Virus record (IMG/VR): IMGVR_UViG_3300046170_000297
Location: 1 to 60,254 of that record
Length of the DNA: 60,254 bases
Origin: a virus
Direction: 5' to 3' (one strand)
The stretch's first letter is position 1, and each line of letters begins with the position of its first letter. The position numbers and the translations under genes are program-made. Below, piece by piece: positions 12,782 through 31,828 of the stretch. The notes under the pieces are model-generated. The model was not told the origin of the DNA. It saw only the letters and a list, made by a program, of their open reading frames with translations, and ran no database searches.

Positions 12782-14390
12782 AATATTAAAAGATCTTTAC
12801 CATAAAACAGTAAAGATCTTTGGTCCTCCAGGTACAGGTAAAACATACACACTGATTGAGAAGGTTCTTAAAAGTTATTTAAGAAAAGGTGTAAGGCCAA
12901 ATGATATTGCTTATCTATCCTTTACTAACAAAGCTGTTAACACTGCAGTCAGAAGAGCCATGGAGTCTTTTCCAAATTATTCTACAGAAGATTTTTCAAG
13001 ATTCAAAACACTACATACTTATTGTAGGAGATACTTTCCAGAAGAAGTATTTGATCCTAAAGATTGTACAATTGATTTTGCATTACAAACCAAAGTAATT
13101 AAGTCTTCAGATAAAAGATTAGCAGATGATAACTTCATGTATAAAGATTGGTCATTAGGAGTCTACAGTAAAGCTAGAAATTTATTAATAGATCCTGAGG
13201 AAGCCTACAAAATGGAAGGGTATAAAAGAGATTCACTTACAGTATTTAAAAGAAAGATAGATACTTACGAACACTATAAGACAGGAGGAGGAGAGAGATC
13301 ATTCATAGACTTTGATGATATGATTCAAAGAGCAATAACAGAAGTAGATTTCCCACCACTTAAAGTTTTAATCTTAGATGAAGCACAGGACTGCACCCCG
13401 TTACAATGGTCAGTGTTATATAAAATGGCACCTAAAGTAGATAGGATATATCTTGCAGGAGATGATGACCAGGCTATATACAAATGGAATGGAGCAGATC
13501 CAAAATATTTTACAAAGTTCTTTCCAGGTCGCAAAGTAAAACTAAGAAAGACTCAAAGATTTGGAGAAGCAATTCATAGATTCTCACAAGTAATTAGAAG
13601 AGGGATTAGAGACAGTGAAGAAAAAGAATATCAACCAGGAGATTCAAAAGGCTCTGTTAAAAGTTATTTGTCATTCAAAGAGATACCTTTCGAAACATTA
13701 AAAGAAGATTGGTATATCTTAGGTCGTATTAATGAAACTGTAAATGAACTTAGGATGTTAGCTAAGGATGCAGGTTTATATTACAAAGACAATAGAGGTA
13801 CTAAATGTTTTGATCAGAAACAATGGGAAGCTATCAAAGCTTGGACAACAATTAGTAATAATAAAAAGATAGATAAAAGAGCAGCACGTAACATGGTTAA
13901 ATATATTAGAGAACTTGAAGACCCTGCTTATAGATTAGATAAGTTCTGGAGGAATGAACCAGATTTAAGAGAGTATGACTTTCAAACTTTAAAAGAGTGG
14001 TGTGGTCTAGCATTAGAAGATACACAAAAAAATAAACCTTGGTATTGGATACTGAGAAGAAATTTTAAACCAAGACAAGTAAGACACTTTATAAGATTGT
14101 TAAGAAGATATGGACAAAAAGAATTAGATAAGGATCCAATAATAACAATTGATACAATACATAGTGTCAAAGGTGGTGAAGCAAATCATGTTGTACTTTA
14201 TAGTAAAGGTAATTACCCATCTGATTATGCAAACAAAAACAAACAAGAAAAAAGTGATGAACGTAAGGTTTGGTATACCGGTGCAACAAGAGCAAGAAAA
14301 ACTTTACATTTATTAAGAACAGACTATAAGTTTAACTACCCAATAGGGTCAGACTATTTAATTTATGTCCAGGAGAAAAATGACAAATAA
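12747..14390 (+). CDS. Superfamily 1 DNA helicase, UvrD/PcrA-like, 547 aa
   Basis: An ATP-dependent 3'-5' type SF1 helicase by motif content: Walker A GPPGTGKT (26-33), LSFTNKAV (Ia, about 57-64), motif II DEAQD (211-215), motif III GDDDQAIYKWNG (238-249), motif V DTIHSVKGGE (about residue 470) and motif VI VWYTGATRARKTL. At 547 residues it is shorter than bacterial UvrD. The start lies within the end of the primase gene, and an alternative downstream start is possible because residues 1-15 are not conserved-looking. With no DnaB-type helicase in the window, it may serve replication directly. Confidence 0.9.
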   Translation: MTNSTQESLELRILKDLYHKTVKIFGPPGTGKTYTLIEKVLKSYLRKGVRPNDIAYLSFTNKAVNTAVRRAMESFPNYSTEDFSRFKTLHTYCRRYFPEEVFDPKDCTIDFALQTKVIKSSDKRLADDNFMYKDWSLGVYSKARNLLIDPEEAYKMEGYKRDSLTVFKRKIDTYEHYKTGGGERSFIDFDDMIQRAITEVDFPPLKVLILDEAQDCTPLQWSVLYKMAPKVDRIYLAGDDDQAIYKWNGADPKYFTKFFPGRKVKLRKTQRFGEAIHRFSQVIRRGIRDSEEKEYQPGDSKGSVKSYLSFKEIPFETLKEDWYILGRINETVNELRMLAKDAGLYYKDNRGTKCFDQKQWEAIKAWTTISNNKKIDKRAARNMVKYIRELEDPAYRLDKFWRNEPDLREYDFQTLKEWCGLALEDTQKNKPWYWILRRNFKPRQVRHFIRLLRRYGQKELDKDPIITIDTIHSVKGGEANHVVLYSKGNYPSDYANKNKQEKSDERKVWYTGATRARKTLHLLRTDYKFNYPIGSDYLIYVQEKNDK

Positions 14391-14628: not shown

Positions 14629-16499
14629 ACGGACTACAACTTACGTTAACATTTAAGAAATCAATGTGGAATACACCGTCAGAATATAAAGATTTATCTG
14701 GTGCAACTGAGATAGCAATTGACTTAGAAACTAGAGACGATGGTATTAATGAAAAGCTTGGAGCTGGTTGGGCTTTAGGTAAAGGAGAGATTGTAGGGTT
14801 TGCAGTAGCCGTTGATGGATGGCAAGGATACTTTCCGTTTGGACATTTAGGTGGTGGTAACATGATACCTGAACAAGTAAAAAAATATATGAAGGATGTA
14901 TGTGCCCTTCCTTGTGCAAAAATATTTCACAACGCTCAGTATGATGTAGGTTGGTTAGAAGCATCAGGAATCACGGTCAACGGACCAATAGTAGATACAA
15001 TGATAGCTGCAGCATTAATAGATGAAAATAGATTTCAATATAACTTAAATAGTTTGTCAGTAGATTATTTGGGAGAAATAAAAGCAGAGACAGAATTAAG
15101 AGAAGCAGCCGCAGCTCATGGTATAGACCCTAAAGCAGAGATGTGGAAGTTACCTGCAGAACATGTTGGTTACTATGCAGAGCAAGATGCAGTGTTAACA
15201 TTAAAGTTATGGCAAAGATTTAAACAAGAGATAAGAACGCAGAGCCTAGAAACTGTGTGGGATCTAGAACAACAATTAATTCCGGTGCTGATAAAAATGC
15301 GTCAACGAGGAGTGAGAGTCCAAGTGGAATTAGCTGAACGACTAAAAAAAGAAATGTTGAGCCAAGAAAAAGAACTACTGGGGGCCATACAAAAAGAATC
15401 AGGAATAGAAGTAGACATTTGGGCATCACGCCAGATTGCCAAAGCTTTTGACAAAATGAAATTAGATTATCCACGAACTGAAAAAACAAATGAGCCTTCC
15501 TTTACACAAAATTGGTTAATAAATAACAAACATAACCTAGCGCAATTAATTGTGCAAGCCAGAGAGATAAATAAATTTCATAGTACCTTCCTGTCATCAA
15601 TACTTCGATACCAGGTCAAAGGTAGAATCCATGGAGAGATACAACAATTAAGATCTGATTTAGGGGGAACGGTATCAGGTAGACTATCTATGAGTAACCC
15701 AAATCTACAACAAGTACCTGCTAGAAACAAAGATCTAGGACCTAAAATTAGATCACTGTTTATACCAGAAGAGGGTTACCAATGGGGCTCATTTGATTAC
15801 TCGCAACAAGAACCACGAATGACGGTTCACTATGCAGCATCTATTGGAGACAATGGTTATGAAGGGGCACAAGAATTAGTAGAGGCTTATAAGAATGATG
15901 ACGCAGACTTCCATCAAACAGTAGCAGATCTTGTTGGTATTGAAAGAACTCAAGCTAAAACAATTGGTCTAGGTATAATGTATGGAATGGGTAAGAATAA
16001 ATTAGCATTATCTTTAGGGGTAACTAAAGATGAAGCAGATGAATTAATTGTAAAATATAACAAGAAGGTTCCTTTTATTAGAAAACTTTCTGATAGATGT
16101 AAGTTAGCAGCAGATGAGAAGGGTGTGATTAGGACTAAAAAAGGTAGGAAGTGTAGGTTTGATAAGTGGGAGACTAGAGACTTTGGATTACACCAAGCCG
16201 AAACATTTGATAATGCAGTTGCTAAATATGGTAAAGATAATATTAAGAGAGCCTATACATACAAAGCATTGAATAGATTAATTCAAGGATCCTCAGCTGA
16301 TCAAACAAAACAGTCTATGTTGGATTGTTACAAAGCAGGTCACTTACCTATGTTACAGATACATGATGAACTTTGTTTTAATATTAAGGATGATGCTCAT
16401 GCAAAAGAGATAAAAGGTATTATGGAGAAGTCAATTGAGTTTAAAGTACCTTCAGTGGTTGACGTTGGATTAGGAAAGAGTTGGGGTGATGCTAAATAG
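14625..16499 (+). CDS. polA: DNA polymerase family A with 3'-5' exonuclease domain, 624 aa
   Basis: The replicative polymerase. Exonuclease motifs: AIDLET (31-36, Exo I), FHNAQYD (101-107, Exo II), YYAEQDA (183-189, Exo III), so proofreading residues are intact. Polymerase motifs: A, FDYSQQEPR (390-398); B, RTQAKTIGLGIMYG (441-454); C, QIHDE (578-582). The length is typical of phage enzymes without a 5'-3' exonuclease domain. It starts with a 4-base overlap (ATGA) on the DUF3310 gene and its end overlaps a homing endonuclease gene by 14 bases. One continuous frame with no errors. Confidence 0.95.
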   Translation: MNGLQLTLTFKKSMWNTPSEYKDLSGATEIAIDLETRDDGINEKLGAGWALGKGEIVGFAVAVDGWQGYFPFGHLGGGNMIPEQVKKYMKDVCALPCAKIFHNAQYDVGWLEASGITVNGPIVDTMIAAALIDENRFQYNLNSLSVDYLGEIKAETELREAAAAHGIDPKAEMWKLPAEHVGYYAEQDAVLTLKLWQRFKQEIRTQSLETVWDLEQQLIPVLIKMRQRGVRVQVELAERLKKEMLSQEKELLGAIQKESGIEVDIWASRQIAKAFDKMKLDYPRTEKTNEPSFTQNWLINNKHNLAQLIVQAREINKFHSTFLSSILRYQVKGRIHGEIQQLRSDLGGTVSGRLSMSNPNLQQVPARNKDLGPKIRSLFIPEEGYQWGSFDYSQQEPRMTVHYAASIGDNGYEGAQELVEAYKNDDADFHQTVADLVGIERTQAKTIGLGIMYGMGKNKLALSLGVTKDEADELIVKYNKKVPFIRKLSDRCKLAADEKGVIRTKKGRKCRFDKWETRDFGLHQAETFDNAVAKYGKDNIKRAYTYKALNRLIQGSSADQTKQSMLDCYKAGHLPMLQIHDELCFNIKDDAHAKEIKGIMEKSIEFKVPSVVDVGLGKSWGDAK

Positions 16500-16917
16500 A
16501 AATTTTCCCCATGATAACAAAGACTTAATAGCTTATGCAGCAGGATTGTTTGATGGTGAAGGTAACATTAATTATGCACAATATAAATGCAAGAAGCCAA
16601 ATGGTAAAACTTATTTAAAATGGAATGTAGCAATGGAAGTTGCAATGACAGATTTAGATTGTATCAAAAATTTTTATGATATTGTTAAAGTAGGCAGTAT
16701 TCATTTCAAAGGTATTGGTAAAGGATCATTAGGTAAGACAGATCAGTGGAGATGGAGATGCTCTCATCAAAAAGCATTACACCTTGCAAAATTATTTTTA
16801 CCGTACGCTACTGTAAAAAGAGAAAGACTATTAAAAATTATAAATCACTATGAGTTTATTAAGCCGAAAGAATCCCTAGGAAAAAAGTTTAGTTTTTTAA
16901 AATCTAATAAAACTTAG
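16486..16917 (+). CDS. Single-motif LAGLIDADG-type homing endonuclease, 143 aa
   Basis: The segment AYAAGLFDGEGNI (residues 17-29) is a divergent LAGLIDADG motif with the metal-binding acidic residue in DGEG. One motif in 143 residues implies a homodimer. The later RWRCSHQKALHLAKLFLPY and ERLLKIINHYEF helices also fit the family. It is free-standing directly behind polA, overlapping it by 14 bases. No intron or intein is visible in polA, so it may cut a polymerase gene lacking the insertion in related phages. Convergent with the minus-strand operon, sharing 4 bases. Confidence 0.8.
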   Translation: MMLNRNFPHDNKDLIAYAAGLFDGEGNINYAQYKCKKPNGKTYLKWNVAMEVAMTDLDCIKNFYDIVKVGSIHFKGIGKGSLGKTDQWRWRCSHQKALHLAKLFLPYATVKRERLLKIINHYEFIKPKESLGKKFSFLKSNKT

Positions 16918-21415: not shown

Positions 21416-21747
21416 CAGTTAACTCATGATTTCTCCTAAGTTAGTTAATTAAAGATATACGTTTAAAATTTTTTTTCAAGTTTTTTTTCTTCTAAAAAAT
21501 GTTCTCCAGAACCAGGATCTACAAATAGAAATAGCCGTGAATATTACTGCAATATGGAAAGCTTTCCCATACGGTTGGGTACATATCGAAAAATGGAAAT
21601 ATATATAGCTGCACTAAGGTTGATAGTAATAACCCTGAGCCGACATCAATTAATGTTTCGAAAAGATTTCTCATAATAAAACTTAGGCCCACTAGAAAGG
21701 AATAAATCTAAAAAAACGTGAGCCTAAGCTAACTAACAATTGAGGTA
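21377..21747. other. Non-coding stretch with hairpins
   Basis: Apart from the 21371-21415 hairpin I see no convincing gene here. A second stem is formed by CTTAGGCCCAC (near 21685-21695) and GTGAGCCTAAG (near 21719-21729), with one mismatch and a loop of about 25 bases, just ahead of the small gene at 21748. The rest is AT-rich with long T/A runs (21460-21500). It may be a leader for 21748 or part of the origin/packaging region to the right. Confidence 0.35.
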
Positions 21748-21876
21748 ATGAAAATGATAACAAACATTACTCAAGATAACTTTAAGTCATTGGCCAGGAT
21801 CCGTCAATCTTTAATCTGGGTCAATGGTATTAGAACCACGGCTCACGGGGCCTTGTTTCCTAGTACACTTCCTTAG
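21748..21876 (+). CDS. Possible small protein, 42 aa
   Basis: It begins MKMITNITQDNFKSLARIRQ after a GAGG ribosome-binding site and the ACTAAC leader motif shared with several nearby genes (CTAACTAACAATTGAGG). It ends at TAG 21874-21876, inside the CTAGGAAA repeat region. The clean leader supports translation, but the C-terminal half runs over the GC-rich word CCACGGCTCACGG, so coding is uncertain. Confidence 0.4.
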   Translation: MKMITNITQDNFKSLARIRQSLIWVNGIRTTAHGALFPSTLP

Positions 21877-22075
21877 AAAAAAAAAAATAAAAAAAAGTTT
21901 GTAAGGGTTTTTTTCTAGGAAACTAGGAAAAACATTGAAACACAACACTTCTAGAGCAAAACACACTAGGAAAACACTAGGAAAATTCCTAGTAGTTCTA
22001 GGAAAATACACTGCTTGAGGCCATTTTCTGCTAAAAAATAAAATAAAAAAGTTTGTAAGAAAGAGTATTAGGAAA
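21856..22075. repeat. Cluster of CTAGGAAA boxes upstream of terS (possible pac/cos or replication origin)
   Basis: Exact CTAGGAAA occurs at 21915-21922, 21923-21930 (directly adjacent), 21966-21973, 21977-21984 and 21998-22005. The inverse TTTCCTAG lies at 21856-21863 and the near-inverse ATTCCTAG at 21985-21992. Degenerate copies are at 21872, 21951 and 22068. A flanking direct repeat, AAAAAAGTTTGTAAG, is at about 21891-21905 and 22045-22059. This iteron-like array lies between a small gene and the terminase small subunit, where packaging sites and origins often lie. Confidence 0.6.
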
Positions 22076-22099
22076 AAATTTATGATATAACAGGTCAAG

Positions 22100-22703: not shown

Positions 22704-22801
22704 ACTTCGAAGATACATATGGGTTTTTTTTCACAAAATCCGAAGATGCATATGGGTTTTTTTTGATGAAGTCCGAAGATACATATGGGTTTTTTTCATG
22801 A
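22700..22801 (+). CDS. 33-aa peptide made of three 11-residue repeats
   Basis: The peptide is M plus three repeats of the type (F/S)EDxYGFFxxK: FEDTYGFFFTK, SEDAYGFFLMK and SEDTYGFFS. It starts and ends with ATGA overlaps with its neighbours, a sign of translational coupling. The repeats are encoded by an exact 33-nt period that includes runs of seven or eight T. No homologue recognised. The DNA repeat, not the peptide, could be the selected feature. Confidence 0.4.
   Translation: MNFEDTYGFFFTKSEDAYGFFLMKSEDTYGFFS
22708..22799. repeat. 33-nt tandem repeat, three copies
   Basis: Copies begin with CGAAGATACATATGGG at 22708, 22741 (GATGCATATG variant) and 22774, each followed by seven or eight T and a variable 6-8 bases. 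The period is exactly 33 bases, so the frame is kept. Not a CRISPR: the copies are tandem, with no unique spacers of the usual size. Confidence 0.85.
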
Positions 22802-23118
22802 ATAAAAAAATACAAAAATCAAAAATTTTAAATTTTAATTTTAAAAATTTAGGAAATAATATTTTAGATTATCCTTACGTAGAAATTAAATGGCTTGATA
22901 TTGAGGGTGACGCAGGTTGGAGTAGTACCAAAGATTTAAAAAATCAAAAACTTCCTGTATGTGTATCAAAAGGATATTTGTTATCTCAAGCAAAAGGTAT
23001 CACCAGAATATTTACAGATTATATTGAAACAAAAGATAAACCAACATTTGATAATATAGGAAATACTACAATTATTCCTACCTCAGTAATTCAATCAATA
23101 AAAAAAATAAAAGTTTAA
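22798..23118 (+). CDS. Hypothetical protein, 106 aa
   Basis: A basic N-terminus is followed by YPYVEIKWLDIEGDAGWSST and VCVSKGYLLSQAKGITRIFT. The core (an aspartate-rich strand, GW, then a G-Y-L beta hairpin) resembles a small phage protein family of unknown function that I have seen in marine and tailed phages. It starts by ATGA overlap with the repeat peptide. Ends with ...VIQSIKKIKV. Confidence 0.6.
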   Translation: MNKKIQKSKILNFNFKNLGNNILDYPYVEIKWLDIEGDAGWSSTKDLKNQKLPVCVSKGYLLSQAKGITRIFTDYIETKDKPTFDNIGNTTIIPTSVIQSIKKIKV

Positions 23119-27512: not shown

Positions 27513-28999
27513 ATGACAGATACAGAATTATTGACCACCGATCAGTTACGAGAGAGGCTCGAAAAAGTATGGTTGAAACATATAAAATTATGCCAAGACA
27601 ACTTCTTGTATTTTGTAAAGAATGTTTGGCCAGATTTCATTTGCAGAACTGATAGTGATCCAGATAAGTGGGGACACCATCAACACATAGCACACGAGTT
27701 TACAAAGATATCTAAAAATAAAAAAGGAAGGCTCATAGTGAAATATGCCTCCTAGACACACTAAATCAGAATTTGCATCCATATACTTTCCTGCTTGGAT
27801 GATTGGAAAGAATCCTAAAATGAAAATTATGCAGGTATCACACAACGCAGAACTTTCAGGAAGGTTCGGTGCGAAGGTAAGAAACTTAATTGACAGTCCA
27901 GAGTATAAACAGATCTTTGGAGATGTTAGACTAAGAGAAGATAGTAAGGCAAAAGGACGTTGGGAGACCAATCAAGGTGGGGAATACTTTGCAGCGGGTG
28001 TTGGCGGTTCTATCACAGGACGAGGGGCGGACTTACTTATTATCGATGATCCACACACGGAGCAAGACTCACTATCCGATAGTGCAATGGAAAGAACTTT
28101 TGATTGGTACTTGTCTGGTCCTAGACAACGTCTACAACCAGGAGGCTCAATTGTACTTGTAATGACAAGGTGGGCTCAAGATGATTTGACTGGTCGATTA
28201 ATAAAATCAGAAAATGAACCTAAGGCAGACAAGTGGGAGAAAATTTCTTTTCCAGCTTTGCTTGGTGAAGATGACAGATGCACAACCCGTGTGGCCTGAG
28301 TATTGGTCTCTAGATGAATTAGAAAAAGTTAAAGCGTCAATATCAATTAGAAATTGGTCTGCTCAATACATGCAAAACCCCACGTCAGAGGAAGGAGCAA
28401 TTCTTAAAAGAGAATGGTGGCAGCCGTGGGTCGGGGATCTTCCAACTTTAAAACATGTTATTCAATCTTATGATACTGCATTCAGTAAAAAAGAAACTGC
28501 CGATTACTCAGCCATTACTACATGGGGAATATTCACGCCTCACGAATCAGGGCCTGATGCTATTATGTTAATTGATGCCGTTAAAGGTAAATATGATTTT
28601 CCAGAATTAAAAATGGTTGCCCTCGATCAATACAAGTATTGGCAACCAGAGACAATTATTATAGAAGCTAAAGCTAGTGGACAAAGTTTATTACAAGAAT
28701 TAAGACGAATGGGTATACCGGTTATGGATTACACACCAGGAAGAGGCCAGGATAAACACTCACGGGTCAACGCCTGTTCTCCGATATTTGAATCTGGACA
28801 AGTATATTTCCCAAGAGACGAACATTGGGCTCAAGAAGTAATTGAGGAATGTGCTGCGTTTCCTCATGGTGAGCATGACGATTATGTAGACAGCACAACA
28901 CAAGCTATGTTAAGATACCGACAAGGTTCTTTTGTAACTACTTATTCTGACGAGGATGAGATGGAAAGTTATAAAGAACGTAAATACGTATATTATTAA
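27513..28999 (+). CDS. terL: Terminase large subunit, about 495 aa, two indels
   Basis: The DNA-packaging ATPase/nuclease. Three pieces read in order: QDNFLYFVKNVWPDFI; then MPPRHTKSEFAS (deviant Walker A), LLIIDDPH (Walker B) and VLVMTRWAQDDL (coupling motif); then HVIQSYDTAFSKKETADYSA, the RNaseH-like nuclease start, with IIIEAKASGQSLLQEL and HGEHDDYVDSTTQAM. One extra A near 27743 and one indel near 28270-28280 break it. A packaging enzyme cannot be lost in a phage, so these are read as sequence errors. Terminase_6-type, as in P22-like marine phages. Separated from terS by the island. Confidence 0.9.
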
Positions 29000-29508: not shown

Positions 29509-31616
29509 ATGGCTGAAATTGAAAAAGCAATTGAAGAGGAAGTAACAACTCCTGATTCAGAAGAAGTTGATATTGAAGTTGAAGGTGAAGAGCCTGTAAC
29601 AGTTGAGGATGTAGTTTCTGAAACTGAATCTTTTTATAAAAATATTGCAGAAGACATGTCAGATGAGACTCTGCAAAGATTATCTAATCAGTTATTAGAT
29701 GATTATAAAAAAGATAGAGTCTCTAGAAAAGATTGGGAAACTTCTTATACTAATAATTTAGATCTTCTTGGAATCAAGCACACAGAGATGACTAGACCGT
29801 TTAAAGGTTCGGCATCCGTGACTCATCCTCTATTATCAGAAGCAGTTACATCATTTCAAGCACAAGCCTATAAAGAATTACTTCCATCTCAAGGACCAGT
29901 AAGAACTAGAGTCTTAGGTGTTGAGGATAATCAAAAAGTAAATCAAGCACAACGAGTGCAAGATTTTATGAACTACATGATTACCGAAGAGATGGAAGAG
30001 TACACTCCAGAATTTGATCAATTATTATTTTATTTAGCACTTGCAGGATCAGCATTTAAAAAAGTTTATTATGATGAAGTAATGCAAAGAGCTGTATCTA
30101 AATTTATTCCTGCAGAAGATTTAGTGGTTCCATACTACACTACCGATTTAATGGAATGTGAAAGAATTACTCATGTCATTAAAATGGGAGAGAACGAGAT
30201 ACTTAAAAAACAAGCAGCAGGATTCTATAGAGATGTAGAATTAAAACCAACTGCTAGTGGTCCTACAGAAATTGAAAAAAAATATCAAGAGTTAGAAGGA
30301 GTAACACCTTCAACTGACAAACAATATTCATACTCAGTACTTGAGATGCATGTTGATTGTAATTTAGATGAGTTTGAAAACACAATTCAGAAAAAGAAGT
30401 TAAAGTTCCTTACATCATAAGTATTGATGAAGGCTCTGGTGAAGTTTTATCTATCTATCGTAACTACGATATGACAGATGAGACTAAAAAAAGAAAAGAA
30501 TACTTTGTACATTTTAAATTTTTACCAGGATTAGGGTTTTATGGTTTTGGATTAACACACATGATAGGTGGATTATCTAGAACTGCTACACAATCTTTAA
30601 GACAATTACTAGATGCAGGTACATTATCGAACTTACCTGCAGGATTTAAGTCTAGAGGTATAAGAATCAGAGACGATGACCAACCATTTCAGCCAGGAGA
30701 GTTCAGAGATGTGGATGCACCAGGTGGAAATATCAAAGATCAGTTTCAAATTTTACCATTTAAGGAGCCATCAGCTACATTATACCAATTAATGGGCTTT
30801 GTTGTTCAAGCAGGACAGAAGTTTGCAGCCATTACTAACATGGATACAGGTAATGATTTGCAAAATAGAGCTGTTGGTACGACTGTTTCGCTATTAGAGC
30901 GTGGTTCGAGGGTCATGAGCGCAATACACAAGCGATGTTACTACTCAATGAGAAGAGAATTTAGACTTTTATCAAAAGTTTTTGCAACATATCTACCACC
31001 AATCTACCCATATTCAGTATATGGTGCAGATCAAGCAGTAAAACAAACTGATTTCGATGATAGAGTAGATGTTATACCAGTTGCAGACCCAAATATCATG
31101 AGTATGGCACAAAGAGTAACGCTTGCTAACGAAAATTTAAAGATTGCTATGTCAAATCCTATGATGCACAACTTGAGAGAGGCATATCGAAGAGTATATG
31201 AAGCATTAGGAACTCAAGATATAGATCAATTACTAATTCCACAAGAACAACCAGTTCCAAAAGACCCTGCAACAGAAAATATGGAAGCATTAATGCAAAA
31301 ACCTCTTAAAGCATTTCCAACTCAAGATCATGCGTCTCATATCGCTGCTCACGCAGCGTTTATGTCTACAAGAATGGTTCAAATTAATCCTCAAGTGTAT
31401 TCAGCTCTACAAGCACACATATCTGAGCACGTTGCACTGCAAGCAACAGGAGAAATTGGTGCTATGGTGCAAGAGGATCCTACAATTCAACAGATGCTAC
31501 AACAAGATCCAGAAGCAGCTAAACTTAGAACGGATGCAATGGTAGCACAAAGAGTTGCAGAGATAACTACACAACTTGCACAAGGTGAAGCATGGGTCAA
31601 CAGAAAGATCCACTAG
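29509..31616 (+). CDS. Portal protein (P22-like), about 700 aa, one frameshift
   Basis: The dodecameric portal through which DNA enters. The first part (29509-30410) includes TRPFKGSASVTHPLLSEAVT and SAFKKVYYDEVMQRAVSKFI. After a one-base shift near 30400-30410 it continues VPYIISIDEGSGEVLSIYR, PGLGFYGFGLTHMIGGLS, PSATLYQLMGFVVQAGQKF and NRAVGTTVSLLERGS. Size and motifs fit the large P22-type portals of marine podoviruses. The C-terminus is Gln/Ala-rich helical, and the next small frame may be its true end. It follows terL closely. Confidence 0.85.
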
Positions 31617-31828
31617 TTGCATTGAAAGAAAGAGAACTAGATCTTAAAGCTATGGACTTACAAAGAAAAGCTGAACAAGATATGAATGTAAATGAAATTA
31701 GAGAAAACGAAATTGATGAAAGATTAGATATTGAAAAAATGAAACTAGAAAATAACGAAGATCAAGCAGCAGAAAGAATTAGAATTGCTGATGAGAAGTT
31801 AGATATCGCTAGGAAGAAGAAAAAATAA
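31592..31828 (+). CDS. Charged coiled-coil protein, 78 aa, or C-terminal end of portal
   Basis: Almost entirely helical and charged (KERELDLKAMDLQRKAEQDM, then IRIADEKLDIARKKKK). Related portals carry such a tail fused (the DPL..L..RE.D pattern), so a single-base error near 31590-31610 could have split it off. Alternatively it is a separate protein starting at ATG 31592. I favour fusion. Confidence 0.5.
   Translation: MGQQKDPLVALKERELDLKAMDLQRKAEQDMNVNEIRENEIDERLDIEKMKLENNEDQAAERIRIADEKLDIARKKKK

Follow-up and report, generated by a model that had tools for sequence, protein, structure and literature searches.

A cluster of short repeated motifs of roughly 220 bases adjoins terS, the gene of the small terminase subunit, at positions 21856-22075 of the window, is framed by an inverted repeat, and is probably the packaging initiation site (pac/cos-like) that TerS recognises in this phage family. 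The window, by which we mean the whole stretch of DNA analysed, is an IMG/VR record of 60,254 bases from an ocean phage of the HTVC023P type, a pelagiphage; pelagiphages here are phages of SAR11 bacteria. HTVC023P matches a 4.2 kb window query with 75.7% identity over 53% of the query, and both window ends abut on HTVC023P coordinates, which implies that the window is a complete circular genome opened at an arbitrary point; no end repeats were found in it. HTVC023P-type phages are the most abundant pelagiphage group reported, with about 7.6% of viromic reads (PMC12753301), and the searched literature on them mentions neither a packaging site nor a genome end. Knowledge of a defined site would show how such genomes are packaged. 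The element and the adjoining gene are laid out below, where identities are to the window over 58 relatives.

21856-21879, minus strand: left arm (TTTCCTAGTACACTTCCTTAGAAA) of the inverted repeat that frames the array, with an inverted iteron at its outer end; 85% identity
21880-21914, no strand: left A/T tract; sequence variable (63%), composition kept
21915-21930, plus strand: iterons A1 and A2, CTAGGAAA twice back to back; 88% identity
21932-21964, no strand: spacer that separates the two iteron groups; CTTCTAGAGCA at 21948-21958 is conserved
21966-21984, plus strand: iterons B1 and B2 at an 11-base step; group B 86% identity
21986-21992, minus strand: iteron B3, inverted, TTCCTAG
21998-22005, plus strand: iteron B4
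22017-22031, plus strand: block GAGGCCATTTTCTGC after the last iteron; only 53% conserved
22032-22051, no strand: right A/T tract
22052-22075, plus strand: right arm (TTTGTAAGAAAGAGTATTAGGAAA) of the inverted repeat that frames the array, with the iteron-like TTAGGAAA at its outer end; 84% identity
22076-22099, plus strand: conserved terS leader, TATGATATAACAGGTCAAG; 83% identity
22100-22606, plus strand: terS, small terminase subunit, 168 aa, with a predicted N-terminal helix-turn-helix

The exact 8-mer CTAGGAAA occurs five times on the plus strand (21915, 21923, 21966, 21977 and 21998) within a span of 91 bases, the first two copies lying back to back and the third and fourth at an 11-base step, as the sequence-only reading of this DNA had described them; its coordinates for the array were also nearly exact. 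Of the two inverted copies that it named, that at 21856-21863 is exact over all 8 bases, whereas that at 21986-21992 is exact over 7. The density is indeed far above chance, as had been claimed, since up to six copies of a single 8-mer fall within 150 bp; the maximum was three in 60 simulations under a Markov model of the window and four in 60 that used local composition. A count over the genome finds no equal density elsewhere, the other 60 kb holding one further copy (16876). The proposed frame fared less well: a direct repeat of 15 bases, with 154 bases between its copies, does exist, but most of it is A-tract and relatives such as HTVC023P do not preserve it, and it was rejected as a functional frame. 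The conserved frame is the imperfect inverted repeat with 24-bp arms at 21856-21879 and 22052-22075, each with an A/T tract beside it, which the earlier reading lacked. In more distant relatives, just upstream of terS in L171 and L173, the leader stretch ACAGGTCAA (22081-22099) occurs reverse-complemented, as TTGACCTGT or a similar sequence. Between the upstream gene and the array, an 11 bp stem (CTTAGGCCCAC / GTGAGCCTAAG) followed by the conserved CTAACTAACAA lies at 21682-21728 and is possibly a terminator or a small RNA feature. An RNA element was discarded as a candidate, the single Rfam match being sub-threshold and outside the array.

Close relatives with the same terS hold the array at the same place, and in nearly all TerS loci with enough upstream sequence (the TerS search gave 80 loci) it keeps its spacing and its framing arms. 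In the alignment used for identities, comprising 58 distinct sequences with the window as reference, the values for arms, iteron groups and leader listed above compare with 79% for the first 50 terS codons and 43% for the flank; the array and its arms are conserved like coding sequence within a variable gap. A pattern scan for the B cluster across 2.9 million viral contigs matched 42, with TerS identities to the queries down to about 65%. In 41 of the 42, the array lies upstream of terS on the same strand, at 93-158 bp (49 bp in one, by truncated alignment), and the remaining contig ends 55 bp after the array. As the pattern selects the motif of the window's clade, this result is a measure of constant position and not of the motif's reach. 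Matches to a CTAAGAA pattern in L211, L212, L213 and L215, contigs without terS, were taken as unrelated. The motif itself changes in concert: in L046 and L049, YTAAGAA replaces YTAGGAA in all seven copies, and in L071-L074 the copies mostly read YTGGGAA. A change carried through every iteron copy would be expected for the sites of one sequence-specific protein. The conservation of array and arms, the position upstream of terS in 41 of 42 matches with the other truncated by its contig, and the concerted motif change all favour a packaging site.

The obvious candidate for the reader of the iterons is TerS itself. Its profile matches are to phrog_51 (4e-6) and to Pfam Terminase_2 (9e-6, just above its cut-off), and a structure model of modest quality (mean pLDDT 67) places helices at residues 16-27, 34-40 and 50-58. 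A sequence search of the PDB gave no match, and the best fold match of the model, which is weak (E 2.1), is to the phage protein phBC6A51 (2ao9), counted among the small terminases (PMC11331095). The helix-turn-helix of the L046 TerS has no lineage-private residue to explain the new motif; thus, the motif change alone does not identify TerS, and the point weighs against the packaging site. The same is true of the reports that the TerS proteins of SPP1 and SF6 read DNA shape rather than sequence (PMC4856287, PMC9611059).

The plan of the element recurs with other motifs in other lineages. In 023Pt_psg01, whose TerS is about 31% identical to that of the window, the element at L167:13627-13861 is built on TGGCACA and consists, in order, of a tandem pair and a spacer, then an inverted copy and another tandem pair, and finally a G/C block with an A/T tract behind it; it also has outer arms and A/T tracts, and is present in most of the 32 related loci whose sequence covers the region. 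It lies within 1 kb of terS, which is on the opposite strand and beyond the following gene, a homologue of window 22798-23118 as judged by eye. An ORF at L167:13879-14165, beginning at about 13879 just after the element and annotated in its 3′ part only (14008-14166), looks homologous to window 22798-23118 and to HTVC027P gp28. HTVC027P has iterons of the TGTNACA type at the corresponding place (judged by eye), its element at L163:14778-14945 being no more than about 1 kb from terS. In DSL-LC04, the top-scoring interrupted inverted repeat of the genome is a framing repeat whose core, ATACACT, is similar; it lies upstream of the terS cluster, likewise within about 1 kb, and the inner repeats differ. 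CRP-901, MinM2 and CRP-810 have TerL in common with the window, and no comparable element was found in the stretches of CRP-901 and MinM2 examined. The same plan near an inverted terS in psg01 and the similar framing repeat near terS in DSL-LC04 favour a packaging site further.

The psg01 arrangement, with terS inverted and past the next gene, argues against the element as a simple terS operator, and it bears on a more general role in transcription, in which a phage regulator would bind the array and switch the operon that runs rightward from terS, or from the 22798-23118 homologue in the psg01 clade. Such control would suit an element that in both clades immediately precedes the first of the rightward genes, as well as a conserved terS leader. 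The element is single-copy in the genome, hence without a regulon, as an operator it would be large, with 220 bp, about eight sites and symmetrical arms, and in psg01 it does not precede terS; we regard transcription control as improbable.

The main rival is an iteron-type replication origin, where a phage initiator would bind the CTAGGAA iterons and melt the A/T tracts, with the arms stabilising the complex. Iteron-type origins of plasmids and phages consist of clustered short repeats next to A/T-rich DNA, and the element resembles them in having its iterons clustered beside A/T tracts. It also separates the replication genes from the late genes, has several small conserved neighbours without known function, and carries clade-specific motifs that would equally suit a clade-specific initiator. 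In contrast to such origins, no initiator was found among the neighbours by Pfam, PHROGs or NCBIfam, several of the neighbour proteins being of no recognised function, and the cumulative skew shows no turn at the element, a weak test where nearly all genes run in one direction. The constant close partner is terS instead: when the window proteins were compared with the neighbourhoods of four lineages, TerS was the only one matched close to the element in all of them, with TerL further off. The sequence-only reading had offered a TerS-binding packaging site or a replication origin as alternatives. Between these, the comparison favours the packaging site, since the distance between the element and terS is at most about 1 kb in four lineages, an inverted terS included, since TerS alone among the compared genes is near the element in all four, and since contig ends pile up at one point in the element in one clade; an origin is, in our judgement, unlikely.

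Hints of a first cut or a physical DNA end come from the ends of contigs. Within the window's clade, contigs end in the array stretch at about five times the background rate and the ends are scattered, whereas four of the 56 psg01-clade contigs, each from a different metagenome, start at the last iterons no more than 4 nt apart, corresponding to 7.1 contig starts per kb as against 0.1-0.2 nearby. Together with the known TerS sites of this kind, these four starts speak for a packaging site, although the cluster may be an assembly break. On the opposing side stand the scattered ends of the window's clade, the finding that none of 25 contigs stops at the psg01 point from the other side, and the complete genomes, whose assemblies run across the element without a break. 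Complete assemblies have many different opening points, and these do not tell for or against SPP1-type headful packaging with permuted genomes. The contig starts also bear on a T7-like reading, in which the element would be a short direct terminal repeat of some 220 bp that assemblies have collapsed and whose two cut ends the arms would mark. Nearly all relatives retain both arms, which are separated by about 200 bp, and short terminal repeats of 125 bp are described in another pelagiphage group (PMC10504331). No contig was seen to begin or end at both arms, a collapsed repeat being invisible in an assembly, and the psg01 start cluster falls inside the element; we consider a terminal repeat very improbable.

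A G/C block containing TGCGCG or CGCGCG and followed by an A/T tract is seen at L167:13803-13817, L161:7268-7280 and L163:14885-14900. The block is near-symmetrical in the psg01 clade (CGACGCGCGCGACC) and has no clear equivalent in the window. It recurs at the same element position in three lineages and is a possible cleavage site, and the window block at 22017-22031 possibly takes its place and forms the cut region. The starts of three contigs from relatives lie no more than about 8 nt from the window block.

If the element is a packaging site, we infer the following course from its layout, including TerS as reader, the cut, its place and the direction of packaging. TerS oligomers made from the adjacent gene would bind the CTAGGAA iterons, arranged as two in tandem, a spacer of about 36 bp and a cluster of four with one inverted, and the A/T tracts and symmetrical arms would help to fold the DNA, by wrapping or looping, into a nucleoprotein complex that positions TerL for the first cut. 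The cut would fall in or beside the element, probably near the last iterons and the G/C block, and from there packaging would run rightward through terS, terL and the structural genes.

TerS-recognised sites commonly lie near terS, are multi-element and involve bent DNA, as in lambda cosB and SPP1 pac (PMC4669245, PMC4856287). Lambda cos (cosQ-cosN-cosB) has the TerS sites R3, R2 and R1 with an IHF site between R3 and R2, and a cosN of two-fold symmetry that yields cohesive ends; the element is like it in comprising about 200 bp beside terS with short, TerS-site-like repeats in two groups and a spacer. Unlike lambda cos, its iterons are seven-base, stand in both orientations and are enclosed by a long-range inverted repeat, with no significant IHF site in the spacer and no cohesive end known. 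An IHF bend site in the spacer was rejected as not convincing, since nine of 36 spacers contain an IHF-like match with no more than one mismatch, as against 13% in the control. cosN and cosQ are conserved between lambda and phage 21, whereas their R sites vary along with the recognition helix of TerS (PMC4669245), which resembles the differing motifs and kept plan observed here. In SPP1 pac (pacL-pacC-pacR), TerS is bound on both sides of the cut and pacL is bent (PMC4856287); the element is similar in its position near terS, its elements flanking a middle region, its A tracts and a possible symmetrical complex. SPP1 pacL and pacR share no sequence, whereas the arms of the element are inverted copies and its iterons strict repeats. 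We suggest, tentatively, that TerS iterons within a long-range inverted repeat represent a packaging plan not described before, in which the plan is kept and the iterons are replaced wholesale (CTAGGAA, TGGCACA, TGTNACA), so that motif and reader would change together. The natural motif series and the accompanying TerS proteins make the question of how TerS reads DNA (PMC9611059) testable by site exchange.

Elsewhere in the window, terL (27513-28999) and the next large gene (29509-31828) are each split over three overlapping or adjoining ORFs and are single ORFs in HTVC023P; the splits look like frameshifts, perhaps sequencing errors of the record. A LAGLIDADG-type homing endonuclease is encoded at 16486-16917, immediately following the DNA polymerase gene.
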